Of a stretch of 64,000 nucleotides of DNA, positions 18,466-36,092 are shown piece after piece. The position numbers were made by a program, and so were the translations under genes. Below the pieces are notes generated by a model that was not told where the DNA came from, did no database searches, and saw only the letters and a program-made list of their open reading frames with translations. Every line of letters begins with the position of its first letter. Position 1 is the first letter of the stretch. The stretch spans positions 3,224,001-3,288,000 of the forward strand of contig NZ_CP163528.1 of NCBI RefSeq assembly GCF_041081105.1, in the 5' to 3' direction. Source of the DNA: Promicromonospora sp. Populi. Its GTDB lineage: Bacteria; Actinomycetota; Actinomycetes; Actinomycetales; Cellulomonadaceae.

Positions 18466-18929
18466 GCCACGAGCAGCGCCTCGCCGAGCTGGGCATCAAG
18501 CTCCCCGAGGTTGCGGCCCCAGTCGCGGCGTACGTCCCGGCCGTGCAGACCGGCAACTACGTCTACACCTCCGGTCAGCTCCCGTTCATCGAGGGCGCAC
18601 TACCGGCCACGGGCAAGGTCGGTGCGGGCGAGGGCTTCGTCTCGCCCGACGACGCCGCGGGCTACGCCCGCACCTGCGCCCTCAACGCGCTCGCCGCCGT
18701 CCGGTCGGTCACCGGCTCGCTCGACTCGATCGCACGGATCGTGAAGGTCGTCGGCTTCGTGGCCAGCGACCCGTCCTTCACCGGCCAGCCCGGCGTCATC
18801 AACGGGGCGTCCACGGTGCTCGGCGAGATCTTCGGCGACGCCGGCATTCACGCCCGCTCCGCGGTCGGCGTGGCGGTTCTTCCGCTGGACTCGCCGGTCG
18901 AGCTGGAGCTCGTCGTCGAGCTGGTGTAG
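18462..18929 (+). CDS. RidA-family protein (YjgF/YER057c/UK114)
   Basis: About 155 residues. VQTGNYVYTSGQLPFIEG and CALNALAAVRSVTGSLDSI match the RidA family. RidA hydrolyses reactive enamines and imines made by PLP enzymes. The arginine that binds the carboxylate in true RidA usually lies in a C-R-V-type segment; here the matching region reads GIHARSAVGVAVLPLDSPVE, with Arg retained. This longer form belongs to the Rid subgroups often left unassigned. It is coupled to DUF4177. Confidence 0.87.
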   Translation: MSHEQRLAELGIKLPEVAAPVAAYVPAVQTGNYVYTSGQLPFIEGALPATGKVGAGEGFVSPDDAAGYARTCALNALAAVRSVTGSLDSIARIVKVVGFVASDPSFTGQPGVINGASTVLGEIFGDAGIHARSAVGVAVLPLDSPVELELVVELV

Positions 18930-18940
18930 CGCTTCGCACC

Positions 18941-18994
18941 GGCCCGGAACGGGCGTGACGGGTCCCACTCGGGATTCGGTTTCCGTTCCGGGCC
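18941..18994 (+). terminator. Hairpin downstream of the RidA gene
   Basis: GGCCCGGAACGG (18941-18952) pairs perfectly with CCGTTCCGGGCC (18983-18994) across a 30-base loop. It lies between the RidA stop and tRNA-Pro. A TATTCT at 19005-19010 may be the -10 of the tRNA promoter. Confidence 0.5.
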
Positions 18995-19060
18995 ATGCGT
19001 CGGCTATTCTGAGCAGGCTTCCGCGGAAGGGCTTCGTGCCTGTTGTGCGGTGGAATCCAT

Positions 19061-30624: not shown

Positions 30625-32112
30625 ATGATCATTGCAGGTATCGGCGTGACGGTGCTCGCCGTCGTCGTCATCGGAATAGTCGTCGCCCGAAAGGTCGACG
30701 GCGACTCAACCAACTACCTCGTCGCCGGGCGCCGCCTGGGCGTGCCGCTCGTGGGCGCGTCGCTCATGGCGGCCGCCGTCGACTCCAACGCCACCGTCGG
30801 CAACACCGACCTGACATCGCTGTTCGGCTTCTGGTCGGGGGCGTCGCTGGCCCTCGGCCTGGCCATCTGCCTGCTGCTGACGGGCCTGTTCCTGGCCAGG
30901 CGGCTGAACGGCATGGGCCTGTACACGCTCGCCGACTACTACCGGAACCGCTACGGACGCGGCGTCGAGGTGGCGGCCTCGGTACTGATGATCTTCGCGT
31001 TCGCGATCCTCATGGCCGGCAACCTCGTCGCGTGCGGGTTCCTCCTGGAGCACTTCGCCGGGCTGCCGTACTGGGCAGGCGTCGTGATCGCCGTGACCCT
31101 CGTGCTGATCTACACAGTGGGCGGCGGCATGTTCTCCGACGCCTACACCGCGGCCGTCCAGATCAGCATCACGTTGGTCGCCACGGCCGCGCTCGTGATC
31201 TGGTTCGGCACGACCATCGGCTTCCAGGTGCCCGAGGGGATGGGGCCGTTCGACCTGGAACAGCTCACGTCCACCGACTCCGGCGCGCCGATCAACTGGG
31301 CCACGCTGATCTCGCTCGGCATCGGCGACATCGTCGCCATCGACTTCATGCAGCGCGTCTTTTCCGCCCGGACGCCGCAGATCGCGCGGCGCGCCTGCTT
31401 CACCGCCGCCGCCGGCACCGCCGCGATCGGCGTCGCGTTCGCGATGGTGGCACTGGGCTCGGCGGCGATCGGCATCGACGCCGCCGACGGGCCGATGCTC
31501 TTCACGCTGCTCTCGGACCACGCGCCCGTGTGGCTGGCCGTCCTGGTGCTCTCGGGCATCGTCGCGGCGTCCTTCTCGACCGCCTCCGGCGCGATCCTGG
31601 CCACGTCCGCGGTAGCGGTGCGCAACATCATCGGCGTCCGCCGCGTCGCCCCGGCGGACGGCTCGTACGACCCCCTGCTGCGCTGGACCCGCGTCGCGAT
31701 GCTCCCGATCGTCGTGGTGGGGACCGTGATCGCCCTGACCGTGGCGCAGACCGGCATCCTGCTCACTCTCGCGTTCGACCTGATGCTGGCCTGCCTGGCC
31801 GTCCCGTTCCTGCTCGGTGTGTTCTGGAAGCGCGGCGGCACCGCGGCGGCGATCGCCGCGATGACCACCGGCCTCGTGGTGCGGTTCGGCCTGTTCGTGC
31901 TCACCCCCACCATCTACGGGGTGCCGAACGACATCGCGTACATCCCCAACGACCTGGTCCCGGCCACGTTCGACGGCTGGCCCACGATCTACGGGGCGAT
32001 CGTGTCCGTGGTGGCGTACGTGGTGGTGGCGCTGGTGCGCCCGGCCTCCGCGTCGATCGAGCCCGAGCCTGAGCCCGAGCCTGAGGCGGAGCTGGAGCCG
32101 GCGGTGGCCTGA
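30625..32112 (+). CDS. Sodium:solute symporter (SSS) family transporter
   Basis: About 495 residues with roughly 13 membrane helices. Family features are YLVAGRRLGVPLVGASLMAAA, LYTLADYYRNRYGRGVE and YTVGGGMFSDAYTAAVQISI. The C-terminus is an acidic Glu-Pro repeat. SSS members carry urea, proline, pantothenate and other solutes with sodium. Position behind the TetR gene and a shared operator suggest uptake of the substrate of the carboxylase operon (urea or guanidine). GAGGAG lies near the ATG. Confidence 0.85.
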   Translation: MIIAGIGVTVLAVVVIGIVVARKVDGDSTNYLVAGRRLGVPLVGASLMAAAVDSNATVGNTDLTSLFGFWSGASLALGLAICLLLTGLFLARRLNGMGLYTLADYYRNRYGRGVEVAASVLMIFAFAILMAGNLVACGFLLEHFAGLPYWAGVVIAVTLVLIYTVGGGMFSDAYTAAVQISITLVATAALVIWFGTTIGFQVPEGMGPFDLEQLTSTDSGAPINWATLISLGIGDIVAIDFMQRVFSARTPQIARRACFTAAAGTAAIGVAFAMVALGSAAIGIDAADGPMLFTLLSDHAPVWLAVLVLSGIVAASFSTASGAILATSAVAVRNIIGVRRVAPADGSYDPLLRWTRVAMLPIVVVGTVIALTVAQTGILLTLAFDLMLACLAVPFLLGVFWKRGGTAAAIAAMTTGLVVRFGLFVLTPTIYGVPNDIAYIPNDLVPATFDGWPTIYGAIVSVVAYVVVALVRPASASIEPEPEPEPEAELEPAVA

Positions 32113-32118
32113 GCCGTA

Positions 32119-32156
32119 CTCCGGGTCAGCCGCGCCGGCGGAGCGCTGACCCGGAG
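32119..32156 (+). terminator. Terminator after the SSS transporter
   Basis: CTCCGGGTCAGC (32119-32130) pairs perfectly with GCTGACCCGGAG (32145-32156) over a 14-base loop. A second, smaller hairpin CCGTCC/GGACGG follows at 32169-32186 and may serve the opposite strand. Confidence 0.65.
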
Positions 32157-32213
32157 GCTCAGCCCCGACCGTCCACGAAAGGACGGGGTGAAACAGAGAC
32201 GGGCCGGGTCGCG

Positions 32214-33323
32214 TCAGCCGCGGCGCTCGCGCACGGCCTTCGCCAGCTCGCGCAGGAGGTCCTCGGTCGTGTCCCAGTCCATGCACTTGTCGGTGACCGA
32301 CTGGCCGTAGGTGAGCTCGGACAGCGGGCCCGGCTGCTGCGCGCCGGCCTCGATGAAGCTCTCCATCATCAGGCCCGTGATCCCGCGCTCGCCGTCCGCG
32401 AGGCGGTTGGCGATCTCGTGCACCACGCCGGCCTGGCGCACGTGGTCCTTGCCCGAGTTGCCGTGGCTCGCGTCCACGATCACGCCGTTCACGACGGCGC
32501 CGCTCAGCCCGGAGTTGCGGGCCACGCGCAGCGCGGCGGCGACGTCCTCGGCCGAGTAGTTGGGACCGGAGCGTCCGCCGCGCAGGATCACGTGGCAGTC
32601 GGGGTTACCGGTGGTCTCGACGGCGGCGGCCCGCCCCTGACCGTCGGCTCCGAAGAAGGTGTGCTCGCTCGCGGCGGTGATGCAGCCGTCGACGGCGGTC
32701 TGGACGTCACCGTCGGTCGCGTTCTTGAACCCGACGGGCATCGAGAGGCCGGAGGCGAGCTGCCGGTGCACCTGCGACTCCACGTTGCGGGCCCCGATGG
32801 CACCCCAGGTCACGGCGTCGGCGATGTACTGCGGGCTGGTCGGCTCCAGGAACTCGGCCGCGGCGGGCACGCCGGCGTCGAGCACCCCGAGCAGCACCTC
32901 GCGGGCCAGGTTCAGGCCGTGCCGCACGTCGTGCGAACCGTCCAGGTGCGGGTCGTTGATCAGACCCTTCCAACCCACGGTGGTGCGCGGCTTCTCGAAG
33001 TACACGCGCATGACGACGACGAGGTCGTCGGACAGCTCACGCCGGAGCGTGGCGAGCCGTGCGGCGTAGTCGAGCGCGGCCGCCGGGTCGTGCACCGAGC
33101 ACGGGCCGACAATCGTCAGCAGGCGGTCGTCCTCGCCGGTCAGGACGTCACGCACCTCGCGGCGGGACGTGGTGACGAGGTCGCTGCGCGCGGTGCCGAG
33201 CGGCATCGCCTCAAGCAGGCTGTTGGGGGCCGGCAGCGGGTCGAGGGCGCGAATGCGCAGGTCGGAGGTGCGAGTACCGAGGTCGGAGGCCTCGGTGCTG
33301 GGTTCCGCGGGGGTGATGCTCAT
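32214..33323 (-). CDS. aroG: 3-deoxy-7-phosphoheptulonate (DAHP) synthase, class I
   Basis: The 369-residue enzyme makes DAHP from phosphoenolpyruvate and erythrose 4-phosphate, the first step of aromatic amino-acid synthesis. Motifs are TIVGPCSVHDPAAALDYA, VYFEKPRTTVGWKGLINDP, FKNATDGDVQ and VDASHGNSGKDH. ATG at 33323 (MSITPAEPSTE) is preferred; an upstream in-frame extension lacks homology. Its 5' leader holds a small aromatic peptide frame and a terminator-like hairpin, so expression is probably set by attenuation. Confidence 0.95.
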   Translation of the reverse strand: MSITPAEPSTEASDLGTRTSDLRIRALDPLPAPNSLLEAMPLGTARSDLVTTSRREVRDVLTGEDDRLLTIVGPCSVHDPAAALDYAARLATLRRELSDDLVVVMRVYFEKPRTTVGWKGLINDPHLDGSHDVRHGLNLAREVLLGVLDAGVPAAAEFLEPTSPQYIADAVTWGAIGARNVESQVHRQLASGLSMPVGFKNATDGDVQTAVDGCITAASEHTFFGADGQGRAAAVETTGNPDCHVILRGGRSGPNYSAEDVAAALRVARNSGLSGAVVNGVIVDASHGNSGKDHVRQAGVVHEIANRLADGERGITGLMMESFIEAGAQQPGPLSELTYGQSVTDKCMDWDTTEDLLRELAKAVRERRG

Positions 33324-33410
33324 CGGGATCGGGGCTCCTGGTAGGCGGATCTGGTTCGAGGAACCGGACGGCCCGCCACCGACTCCTGGTCCGGAGCGGC
33401 CCGTCTCGGT

Positions 33411-33449
33411 CAAGACGAAGGGCCTGGACGCGATCTGCGTCCCAGGCCC
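33411..33449 (-). terminator. Attenuator hairpin in the DAHP synthase leader
   Basis: On the minus strand GGGCCTGGGACGC pairs with GCGTCCAGGCCC (one bulged G, 5-base loop) and is followed by TTCGTCTT. It lies 22 bases after the leader-peptide stop and 88 bases before the DAHP synthase start. An alternative antiterminator is not clear by eye. Confidence 0.65.
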
Positions 33450-33470
33450 TGGCTCCGGGTGGAAGGTTGG

Positions 33471-33536
33471 TCAGGCGTGCGCCCGCCGGGCTCCACCAGG
33501 AGCCGACGTAAAGCGCCAATACCAACGAATGTCCAC
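33471..33536 (-). CDS. Aromatic leader peptide (21 residues) of DAHP synthase
   Basis: A GTG frame reads MDIRWYWRFTSAPGG and ends six residues later at TGA 33473-33471. Trp, Tyr, Trp and Phe occur within five codons, in a short frame ahead of a terminator-like hairpin and the DAHP synthase gene. This is the layout of transcription attenuation, where ribosome stalling at scarce Trp, Tyr or Phe would favour read-through. The GTG lies exactly 6 bases after a -10-like TACCTT, so the mRNA may be leaderless. An overlapping ATG at 33539 reads another frame with far fewer aromatic residues. Confidence 0.75.
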   Translation of the reverse strand: MDIRWYWRFTSAPGGARRAHA

Positions 33537-33542
33537 ATGAAA

Positions 33543-33571
33543 AAGGTAGCCCCCGCCCCGCGGGCTGTCCA
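33543..33571 (-). promoter_or_regulatory. Promoter of the aromatic leader / DAHP synthase gene
   Basis: TGGACA (33571-33566) and TACCTT (33548-33543) are separated by exactly 17 bases on the minus strand. The expected transcription start falls on the GTG of the leader peptide. Confidence 0.6.
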
Positions 33572-33593
33572 CCGGATCCCGGGATGCGGTTGG

Positions 33594-34328
33594 TCACTCT
33601 CTTGCGTAGCGCACCACGAACGCCCGCAGGATGCGCATGGGCTCGACGATCGGCACGGCGACGCAGCGCTCCCGCACCAGCTCCGCCTCCTCTGGCGGAA
33701 AGTAGCCGTAGTCCCGGTAGACGGCGATCCGCTGCACGATGCCCTCGACGTCCAGCTCGGGGTGGAACTGGGTGGCGTACAGGTTCTGCTTGATCCGGAA
33801 CATCTGCACCGGGCACTCGGCCGACGAGGCGAGCAGCACTGCGCCGTCGGGCAGCTTGCGTACCGCCTCCTTGTGCCCCACGTAGGCCGCGAAGGTCTGC
33901 GGCAGGCCCGCGAGCAGCGGGTCCGCCGCCGCGTCCGGCGTGAGCTCGACCTCGATGGGTCCCACCGGCTCCCCGAACGTCCCGTCGATCACCGCGCCCT
34001 GGTGCGCGCCCAATGTGCCGACGCCGTAGCAGGCGCCGAGGAACGGGAAGTCGCGGGCGACTATCTGATCGAGCAGCCCCGCGAGCTCCGACTCGACGCG
34101 TCGCTGCACCGGGCTCTTCTGCTCCGCGGGGTCGGAGGAGTTGAACGGGCCCCCGCCCACGAGCACACCCGAGTAGTCGTCGAGGTCAACCGCCGGCAGG
34201 GGGCCTTGCTCCAGGCGCACCCGGTGGAGCTGCTCCGGTTCCAGGCCCCCGTACCGGCAGAACGCCGCGTACTCGGCGTCCGCAGCGACGTCCTCGGCGC
34301 GCGTCGCCACCAGGAGAAACGGCTTCAT
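33594..34328 (-). CDS. Class I glutamine amidotransferase-like protein
   Basis: The 244-residue protein has the class I GATase triad: Cys in FLGACYGVGTLG, then His and Glu in TQFHPELDVEG. It resembles the stand-alone GMP-synthase-type amidotransferase domains common in actinobacteria. Without a synthase partner the acceptor is unknown. It starts 19 bases after the permease stop, so it may be the last gene of the GntR-led operon. The DAHP synthase promoter lies just downstream. Confidence 0.85.
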   Translation of the reverse strand: MKPFLLVATRAEDVAADAEYAAFCRYGGLEPEQLHRVRLEQGPLPAVDLDDYSGVLVGGGPFNSSDPAEQKSPVQRRVESELAGLLDQIVARDFPFLGACYGVGTLGAHQGAVIDGTFGEPVGPIEVELTPDAAADPLLAGLPQTFAAYVGHKEAVRKLPDGAVLLASSAECPVQMFRIKQNLYATQFHPELDVEGIVQRIAVYRDYGYFPPEEAELVRERCVAVPIVEPMRILRAFVVRYARE

Positions 34329-34347
34329 GACAAGAGGGTAGGTGAGA

Positions 34348-35112
34348 TCAGGTCCAGCGGAAGAGCCGTACGCCGAGGGGGAACAGAACGGCGGTCCACG
34401 CGACCAGCACGAGCACCTGCGCGAGCGGAAAACCTTCGTTGCCGAACCAGCCGATCGTCAGCCCCTGGGCCGCCGCACCGAGCGGCAGGTAGAGGCCGAT
34501 CTGCTCCATCCAGTCGGGCATGATCGGCAGCGGCACCCACACCCCGGAGAACATCAGGGACGGGAAGTAGATCAGCATGCCCAGGCCCGACGCCGTAGTC
34601 CCCTTCTCGGCGCGCGCGGCAACGAGCAGCCCGAGGGAGAACATGGCGGTGGTCGAGAGCACGAGGACGAGCAGGACGATCAGCGGGTCGGCCGCGAACG
34701 GGACGCCCAGGATCAGCATGCCGCCCACCACCGCTGCGCTGGCCGACACGATCAGCGCCAGCACGTTGATCACCATGTGCGCGCCGATCAGGTTCTGCGG
34801 CGGCATCGGCGTGGTCGCAAGCCGCTTCAGGATGCCCTTCTCCCGGAACGTGGCGAACTGCACGGGCATGGTGGTCAGCGCGATCGTCCCGACGGCCAGG
34901 GCGATGACCGTGGGCAGGTAGCTGGTGATGCCCGGAGCCTCGTTCCACGGCGGCGGGGCGTCGATCATCGGCTCCTGGAAGCCGGGGATGGCGAGCCCGA
35001 GGCCGAGCAGCAGCACGCTCGGGAAGATCAGCGCGAAGAACACGGCGCTCGGCTCCCGCAGCCACACCTTGAGCTCGGTGCCAAGCAGCGTGCCGAATCC
35101 ACGGGACCTCAT
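34348..35112 (-). CDS. ABC-2 type transporter permease
   Basis: About 254 residues with six membrane helices, typical of ABC-2 exporters. It begins LLGTELKVWLREPSAVFFALIFP, followed by an extracellular loop with PPPWNEAPGITSYLP and the FREKGILKRLATTPM cytoplasmic stretch. The ATG overlaps the stop of the partner ATPase gene (ATGA). The pair probably exports a drug, lipid or peptide, as for similar exporters; the substrate is unknown. Confidence 0.88.
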   Translation of the reverse strand: MRSRGFGTLLGTELKVWLREPSAVFFALIFPSVLLLGLGLAIPGFQEPMIDAPPPWNEAPGITSYLPTVIALAVGTIALTTMPVQFATFREKGILKRLATTPMPPQNLIGAHMVINVLALIVSASAAVVGGMLILGVPFAADPLIVLLVLVLSTTAMFSLGLLVAARAEKGTTASGLGMLIYFPSLMFSGVWVPLPIMPDWMEQIGLYLPLGAAAQGLTIGWFGNEGFPLAQVLVLVAWTAVLFPLGVRLFRWT

Positions 35113-36092
35113 GCCGCCACCTCCTCGTTCTCCGTTGCGCGGTACTGGCGGCCGGTAACCTGCACGAACACGTCTTCCAGGGTCCGTTCGACGGTGCGTA
35201 CGTCGTCTGGCACGAGGTCGGCGGCGGCGAGCGCCTGCACAACGGCGAACAGGACCTTGGCCGTGCCCGTCACCTCGATCTCGTCCCCTGCCTGCACGAC
35301 GGCGGTGACGTTGTCGTCGGTGGCGGCGAGGGCGGTGAGCAGCTGGGTGGCCCGCCCGCGGGCGCCGGCGTCGGCGAACCGGAGACGGACGCCGCGGTCG
35401 TCGTCGAGCCCCGCGATCAGGGCGGACGGCGTTCCCTCGGCGACCACGTAGCCGCCGTCGATCACGACGAGCCGGTCGCAGAGCCGTTCGGCCTCGTCCA
35501 TGAAGTGGGTGACCAGCAGCACGGTGACCCCGGAGTCCCGGACCCGCTCCACGAGGTCCCAGGTCGCACGCCGGGCGGCCGGGTCGAGGCCCGTGGTCAG
35601 CTCGTCGAGGATCGCGACCTGCGGTTTGCCGACCAGCGCGAGCGCGATGGACAGCCGCTGCTTCTGCCCGCCGGACAGCTTGCCGAACTGCTGGTTGCGG
35701 TGCGGGGTCAGGTCGAGCAGGTCCAGGAGCTCTTTCGCGTCCGCGCGGCGGGCGTAGAACGAGCCGAAGACGTCGAGCGCCTCGGCGACGGTGATCCTGT
35801 CGTGCAGCGCGGCTTCCTGGAGCTGCACGCCGATGTCCTCGCGGACGGAGGTGGGGTCGGCCTGCGGGTCGTGTCCGAGGACGCGGACCGAGCCGCCGTC
35901 GGCGTGCCGCAGCCCCGCGAGGCACTCGACGGTGGTGGTCTTGCCGGCCCCGTTGGGGCCGAGGATCCCGAAGATCTCACCGGCCGCGATCTGGAAGGAC
36001 ACGTCGGCTACCGCGTTCTTGGGGGGTGCGCCGCGACCGGCGCCGGGGTAGGTCTTGCGGAGGTGGCTCACCTCCACGACTGGGGAAGTCAT
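35109..36092 (-). CDS. ABC transporter ATP-binding protein
   Basis: The 327-residue protein has Walker A GPNGAGKTT, signature LSGGQKQRLS, Walker B VAILDELTTGLD and the switch His in LLVTHFMDEAERL. A C-terminal domain of about 100 residues, found in DrrA/CcmA-type exporters, follows. It drives the ABC-2 permease encoded directly downstream. It is the fifth gene of the GntR-led operon. Confidence 0.92.
   Translation of the reverse strand: MTSPVVEVSHLRKTYPGAGRGAPPKNAVADVSFQIAAGEIFGILGPNGAGKTTTVECLAGLRHADGGSVRVLGHDPQADPTSVREDIGVQLQEAALHDRITVAEALDVFGSFYARRADAKELLDLLDLTPHRNQQFGKLSGGQKQRLSIALALVGKPQVAILDELTTGLDPAARRATWDLVERVRDSGVTVLLVTHFMDEAERLCDRLVVIDGGYVVAEGTPSALIAGLDDDRGVRLRFADAGARGRATQLLTALAATDDNVTAVVQAGDEIEVTGTAKVLFAVVQALAAADLVPDDVRTVERTLEDVFVQVTGRQYRATENEEVAA

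Follow-up and report, generated by a model that had tools for sequence, protein, structure and literature searches.

An aromatic-codon leader and its conserved RNA fold ahead of type I DAHP synthase in many Actinomycetes, a probable ribosome-mediated attenuator

The aroR attenuator of Corynebacterium glutamicum was reportedly characterized by Neshat et al. in 2014, and its transcript is said to be leaderless. Later accounts, as excerpted, place this aromatic-codon leader, like the one studied here, before a DAHP synthase gene (aroF) and call it a transcription attenuator; it carries a Phe-Tyr-Phe motif (a concordant account is given in PMC4046766) and is derepressed on Phe limitation, with Tyr having no effect (PMC11802643). 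The DAHP-synthase leaders described below differ in combining Trp, Tyr, and Phe, and the lack of a Tyr effect on aroR counts against the three-amino-acid attenuator that we propose. Among other systems, Seliverstov et al. 2005 (PMC1262725), in the part cited, limit their conserved elements to trp, cys, leu, and ileS, finding none for any further amino-acid pathway; their LEU element before leuA resembles the present leader in its end-product codons, possible pseudoknot, and alternative folds. The section of the Streptomyces study on which we draw (PMC8079986) describes trpL1, trpL2, leuL, ilvL, and others as leaderless transcripts with short regulatory frames, as here, and assigns none of its eight named leader peptides to DAHP synthase. 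The excerpted account of C. glutamicum ilvBNC, also actinobacterial, gives a three-hairpin attenuator with terminator, antiterminator, and anti-antiterminator (PMC11857589). In the literature covered, mostly without subscription papers, Corynebacterium was the only source of such a leader before DAHP synthase, and none was reported before chorismate mutase. The idea of attenuation and an aromatic leader before DAHP synthase are thus already known from aroR, and less is novel than the preliminary description of this locus had claimed; a wider spread, three amino acids, and a conserved RNA fold are new, and they extend a single-species report to a family of RNAs whose sequence signature can be tested.

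The window (the whole 64,000-nucleotide stretch of Promicromonospora sp. Populi that was analysed) contains the features listed below. Helices were judged by a swap test, in which true partner pairs are compared with partners exchanged between species, the sequences being treated without correction for kinship, and by covariation in an alignment of 36 leaders.

33594-34328, on the other flank of the leader region: glutamine amidotransferase gene (PRK07567)
33566..33571, minus strand: -35-like hexamer TGGACA, read directly (T(G/A)GACA in 13 same-genus sequences)
33543..33548, minus strand: -10 hexamer TACCTT (TANNNT), with a 17-nt spacer from TGGACA, ending 6 nt before the GTG
33471..33536, minus strand: leader peptide frame of 21 codons/residues, GTG start at 33536, TGA stop at 33471, MDIRWYWRFTSAPGGARRAHA
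33510..33524, minus strand: putative regulatory codons Trp5-Tyr6-Trp7-Arg8-Phe9 (TGG TAT TGG CGC TTT), read directly
33521..33526, minus strand: P5, GUUGGU, over the Arg-Trp-Tyr codons; partner P3 (swap test p 1e-7; covariation, 77% of cells paired)
33493..33504, minus strand: segment A, GGCUCCUGGUGG, right after the aromatic codons; partner B or C (swap tests and covariation)
33489..33494, minus strand: segment B, GGAGCC, local hairpin with A (94% of cells paired, 36 sequences)
33466..33471, minus strand: P3, ACCAAC, beginning on the last base of the stop codon; partner P5 (swap test, covariation)
33451..33462, minus strand: segment C, CCACCCGGAGCC; partner A, or D after readthrough (A:C swap tests p 1e-8 and p 3e-13; covariation)
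33419..33450, minus strand: terminator-like hairpin T (T1:T2 swap test p 8e-18; covariation)
33412..33419, minus strand: tail TTCGTCTT of hairpin T, its first T being also the last paired base of the hairpin
33401..33405, minus strand: segment E, GACGG; partner F (E:F swap test p 6e-7, better in 42 of 53)
33391..33397, minus strand: segment D, GCUCCGG, complement of C (swap tests of C with the region after T, p 1e-4 and p 4e-8)
33367..33371, minus strand: segment F, CCGUC; partner E (E:F swap test)
33335..33339, minus strand: Shine-Dalgarno sequence AGGAG of DAHP synthase, read directly
32214..33323, minus strand: DAHP synthase, type I aroFGH kind, ATG at 33323 (TIGR00034, PRK12755)

The 21-residue GTG frame with Trp-Tyr-Trp-Arg-Phe ahead of DAHP synthase is present as first described, and it is kept in relatives. 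So is the hairpin, which is conserved and whose tail lies about 88 nt from the DAHP synthase ATG, as had been stated; the gap from TGA to hairpin T, given earlier as 22 nt, is 20 nt as drawn. Some 150 nt lie between the leader stop codon and the DAHP synthase gene, which is the single PF00793 match in the genome (profile search, E up to 0.001). Its start was placed at ATG 33323, where the protein match begins in 13 of 13 genus genomes; a longer TTG frame in the ORF table is disfavoured by the same match. Folding of 33400-33538 beats 200 of 200 shuffles (z -4.08), and 33411-33536 reaches 106 bits (E 5.9e-29) under a covariance model, the sequence itself being among the 36 on which the model was trained. 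A weak match to the same model (15.3 bits, E 0.0085) occurs on the plus strand of the window at 18910-19027.

The promoter-like elements fit a leaderless transcript, as the preliminary description had supposed from the -10 TACCTT and its 17-nt spacer to TGGACA, which are where it placed them, 6 nt from the GTG. In 136 of 152 leaders, a TANNNT motif ends 6–8 nt upstream of the leader start (39, 87, and 10 leaders at 6, 7, and 8 nt, respectively), and 39 other offsets together gave 23 matches in the same leaders. Such spacing fits a transcription start on the leader start codon itself and supports a putative leaderless leader transcript, which in the window would begin on or next to the GTG. An ATG at 33538 that overlaps the GTG is not kept in the 12 other genus genomes; the GTG is kept in all.

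The preliminary description had made its case depend on close relatives keeping the aromatic codons and the hairpin. Both were present in all 13 genus genomes (the window's own and 12 others), where the element is almost unchanged, GTG included, and both were found beyond the genus. One exact 24-letter pattern occurs at at least 80 named loci, which are conserved in the matched letters by construction; DAHP synthase is the next gene in 75, and the other 5 end too soon. These loci include Promicromonospora, Isoptericola, Cellulosimicrobium, Myceligenerans, Oerskovia, Sanguibacter, and Luteimicrobium and, far outside those genera, Hamadaea, Catellatospora, Phytoactinopolyspora, Trebonia, and Streptosporangiaceae metagenome bins, which together we take to represent several orders. 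With a 16-nt pattern and 2 mismatches allowed, a looser order-wide search found matches in 63 of 297 genomes; many resembled those in a reversed control, and the search was set aside. For strain engineering, the spread means that genera such as Cellulosimicrobium, Isoptericola, and Promicromonospora carry a candidate control element at the entrance to the shikimate pathway.

Searches that started from the enzyme found DAHP synthase in 67 of 345 class genomes and in 101 of 121 genomes of one family. Combined with the first search, they gave 171 upstream regions (three genes, G366, G459, and G605, being counted twice), 135 of which had an aromatic leader, a -10 box, and an APGGA-like motif under strict criteria. 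Any leader candidate at all was present in 143, including at least 4 (L163, L167, L187, and L210) that look unrelated. Of the 58 matches that the covariance model gave over the 345 class genomes (up to E 1.3e-5), 42 precede type I DAHP synthase, 15 precede chorismate mutase, and 1 is false. Only 4 of 246 genomes drawn from the whole phylum were matched, all of the class Actinomycetes. Judged by these comparisons, many Actinomycetes keep the leader ahead of their type I DAHP synthase. The strict filter found no leader in several genomes of family f35 that have the enzyme, genus g139 among them; the type I DAHP synthases concerned in f35 include L148, L149, L152, L154, L158, and L173-L176, and several such f35 loci come after the end of a different protein gene (EYWEEDFPGLK or EFWEEDLPGLK). 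One genome (G025) has three type I DAHP synthase genes, with a leader at L020 and none at L207 or L208.

Among the 135 DAHP-synthase leaders, whose candidates were preselected for aromatic clusters, Tyr and Phe are each present in all and Trp in 123. Trp is absent from the remaining 12; it is often missing from the leaders of the f38 group (RRYPYF), which are the main counter-example to the idea that Trp tracks the pathway. The choice of synonyms is lopsided: the 135 strict leaders use TAT 148 times vs. TAC 5 times and TTT 137 times vs. TTC 23 times, whereas DAHP synthase genes, taken from the subset of these loci that were fetched with the whole gene, show the reverse (TAT 11 vs. TAC 435; TTT 14 vs. 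TTC 620). In 32 long frames of the window, the counts are TAT 20 vs. TAC 238 and TTT 12 vs. TTC 310. By these counts, the putative sensing positions are filled with rare, wobble-read Tyr and Phe synonyms. We read the preference for TAT and TTT as tuning for stalling, another possible cause being RNA pairing or low local structure.

The aromatic codons also stand at a nearly fixed distance from segment A. In 124 of 133 leaders, the last starts exactly 8 nt ahead of A; for the first, the distance is 17 or 20 nt in 130 of the 133. The edge of a ribosome reaches about 13 nt beyond its A site, so that a ribosome stalled at the first aromatic codon would leave segment A free, and one stalled at the last would cover part of it. 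Two pairs of leaders (L063 and L356, L119 and L354) have a frame without a nearby stop codon; that of L063 continues in frame into DAHP synthase, and leader and enzyme could be one protein.

The same leader occurs before a second enzyme of the pathway. Scanning family f35 with the model matched 58 of 120 genomes, 10 before DAHP synthase and 48 before chorismate mutase, and the addition of 3 from the 345-genome class scan brought the mutase leaders to 51. Their downstream proteins were identified as mutases by Pfam in 14, by tblastn in 36, and by likeness for L344, and for one leader (L374) the translation was made by eye. The mutase supplies Phe and Tyr but not Trp, and Phe is present in all 51 leaders, Tyr in 32, and Trp in 1 (L359, a single Trp after the last Phe); the DAHP-synthase leaders inside the same family have Trp in 9 of 10. 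Because the mutase feeds only Phe and Tyr and its leaders have nearly lost Trp, codon content, counted here without correction for kinship among the genomes, is read as tracking the pathway branch. Leader codons would thus follow a metabolic branch point in nature, with a Trp codon present where the gene feeds three amino acids and nearly absent where it feeds two. The earlier suggestion that all three aromatic amino acids are sensed thereby gains indirect support (Trp in 1 of 51 mutase leaders vs. 123 of 135). All 14 mutase proteins scanned passed the Pfam cut-off for CM_2; 13 are fusions and one (L341) is a mutase alone. Twelve of the 13 scanned fusions also passed the cut-off for DAHP_synth_1, and the GPC motif is missing in 14 of 14 fusions (the 13 scanned and L344). 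In these loci (L318-L322, L324-L327, L332, L340, and L342-L344), the putative attenuator, with leaders lacking Trp, precedes a fusion of chorismate mutase (PF01817) with a degraded DAHP-synthase-like domain.

The same counts bear on whether the leader RNA could bind a ligand or a protein, the short frame being there by accident. The strong conservation at the RNA level would agree with this, and helix P together with A:C could be a pseudoknot; however, the reading frame, the spacing from the start codon, and the choice of codons are all kept, the mutase leaders have nearly lost Trp, in line with the pathway, and no Rfam 15 family (T-box included) matched window positions 31000-36000 up to E 5. 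We regard such an RNA as a long shot. Two genomes of genus g219 (2.2–2.9 Mb) have Arg-Phe-Tyr-Phe leaders in which A, C, and T were discerned by eye only; these leaders suggest that aroR belongs to the same family as the element described here.

For the helices, 6 of 74 non-redundant leaders were dropped for want of a start codon, leaving 68; 60 of these entered the first swap test, 53 the tests of D:F and F:S (S being the Shine-Dalgarno region), and 99 of 103 leaders a third, which demanded at least 3 T in 8 of the T tail (range in the set, 3–7) and so favours T. Five helices are supported by these tests: P, A:C, T, C:D, and E:F. Helix P joins the Arg-Trp-Tyr codons to bases after the stop codon, and A:C joins bases past the aromatic codons to a post-stop segment; C:D and E:F are mutually exclusive, with D lying past T and E:F before the ribosome site. 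The control pairs aromatic:C, B:P3, and B:C were null with 60 leaders, as was P5:S. Helix P did worse than swaps in three single-sequence clades (StreptospA, StreptospB, and f22b), and C:D did no better than swaps in StreptospA, StreptospB, and f53. P, A:C, and T also covary, with 102 cells of two-sided change vs. 31.8 in shuffles and 0 of 500 shuffles reaching the score, in an alignment of 36 leaders hand-picked from 46, so that the counts lean towards structure; of the 10 left out, several had a wrong automatic call of T and others were omitted by choice. The alternative helix A:B is kept without covariation beyond chance in the 36 sequences, and its swap test was null with 60 leaders and supportive with 99. 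In L360, A is changed to GACUCC, and both B and C are changed to GGAGUC. P and A:C interleave, both covary, and could form a pseudoknot.

We thus conclude that the short aromatic-codon leader most likely lets a ribosome gauge aromatic amino acids, and we consider a ribosome-mediated attenuator of the aroR kind to be the probable explanation of the locus. Transcription would start on or beside the GTG, and a ribosome would begin on the bare 5′ end and translate the 21 codons. If charged tRNA-Trp, tRNA-Tyr, or tRNA-Phe were in short supply, it would stall on Trp5-Tyr6-Trp7 (or Phe9), breaking helix P and leaving segment A, just ahead, free for C; with ample charging it would reach the stop codon and hold A and C apart, so that A falls back on B. 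Hairpin T would be the terminator, A:C the ON state, and A:B with P the OFF state. The sequence data behind this proposal are conservation, leaderless promoter spacing, codon content, the helices P, A:C, T, and C:D, and the 8-nt ruler, from which we infer stalling, the assignment of the ON fold, and T as the output. The derepression of aroR on Phe limitation also speaks for the proposal. Against A:C as the ON state for phenylalanine is that a ribosome stalled at Phe9 would cover part of A. We give almost no credence to a leader gene that merely boosts translation by supplying ribosomes downstream through reinitiation: this has been put forward for leader genes in general (PMC4833913, as excerpted), but it leaves the aromatic codons, T, and the conserved A:C unexplained, and the leader stop lies about 150 nt upstream of the gene.

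How the ribosome would act on T is less straightforward. The preliminary description had called the region classic leader-peptide attenuation, which, as in E. coli trp, would have a stalled ribosome let a leader segment pair with the 5′ arm of T. A leader peptide, regulatory codons, and a terminator-like hairpin are all there, but several observations make this highly improbable. In the 99-leader swap test, the pairs Arom:T1, B:T1, and P3:T1 were null, and A:T1 and upstream:T1 fell behind, beating their swapped counterparts in just 25 and 33 of 99, respectively, so that pairing of upstream segments with T1 is not conserved and looks avoided; T1 was found by an ungapped hairpin search and may take in only a portion of the arm where a stem contains a mismatch. 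A conserved antiterminator on T1 is rejected on this basis, in keeping with the earlier remark that no clear antiterminator was seen. In the ilvBNC excerpt, terminator and antiterminator overlap (PMC11857589), and the corresponding overlap with T1 is not conserved here. In 61 of 65 sequences, moving the ribosome changes the computed probability of T by no more than 0.15; this near-invariance also speaks against the classic scheme, although an equilibrium result alone would not rule out kinetic antiterminators. The probability varies by more than 0.15 in L020, L063, L204, and L206 and is 0 throughout in L082 and L088, some of the odd rows stemming from a wrong hairpin call. When the nascent RNA was cut before the 3′ arm of T, stalling freed T1 in most rows rather than pairing it, and in truncated nascent RNA with the ribosome at the first aromatic codon, A:C was at least 0.75 in every row except L204.

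Base pairing does not explain how A:C would lower termination, an effect that would have to be steric, kinetic, or exerted after readthrough. We tentatively picture a device lacking an antiterminator, in which the position of the leader ribosome sets A:C (perhaps in a pseudoknot with P) beside a hairpin T with which it shares no pairs, and termination is controlled sterically or kinetically; one such device would serve several orders of Actinomycetes and be tuned by codons, with Trp, Tyr, and Phe before DAHP synthase and Phe, with or without Tyr, before chorismate mutase. This poses the mechanistic question of how a ribosome-set helix could govern a terminator with no shared bases. Hairpin T is conserved and covarying, has a moderately U-rich tail, and lies between leader and gene. 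The window copy has a tail poor in U, and it is missing from a consensus terminator scan of the window that needs at least 5 T in 8.

The helices past T raise a further explanation, in which the output is translational: the leader ribosome would set a chain of A:C, C:D, E:F, and F:Shine-Dalgarno pairings, starvation would open the DAHP synthase site, and T would be a partial block only. The excerpted text of PMC7356990 describes aroR as a translational regulatory leader, C:D and E:F are supported by swap tests, and F:S is weakly so (better in 33 of 53, p 8e-3). In the window, the computed accessibility of the Shine-Dalgarno sequence is 0.12 with no ribosome and 0.08 with one at the stop codon, rising to 0.39–0.51 when it is stalled. 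Across leaders, however, the best stall raised accessibility by more than 0.1 over the stop state in 22 of 67 and the worst lowered it in 7, with at least 38 doing neither, so that uniform opening of the Shine-Dalgarno sequence on stalling is rejected. Nor is pairing of the Shine-Dalgarno region with the aromatic codons, with A, or with D conserved. We therefore consider translational control unlikely, and retain attenuation at T as the preferred reading. Pairing of segment A with the Shine-Dalgarno sequence is 9 of 9 in the window and was rejected as not conserved across leaders. In the excerpted account of the LEU element, the leucine codons pair with the Shine-Dalgarno box (PMC1262725); a LEU-like pairing of aromatic codons is not conserved here, cognate pairs being better than swaps in just 21 of 60.

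Some minor observations concern the hairpins themselves. In an f22 subgroup (L198-L200 and L206), the leaders carry Tyr-Phe-Trp-Phe, and T was not found or C:D itself stands in its place. The tail GGCCCTTCGTC was considered as a common terminator signature of the window's genome and rejected, with 6 matches vs. 6 in a reversed control. Five weak model hits (L328-L331 and L333) coincide with ordinary hairpins that carry CCCTTCGTC tails and lie close to tRNA genes or the ends of protein genes, suggesting that a CCCTTCGTC tail may mark a type of intrinsic terminator in other genera.
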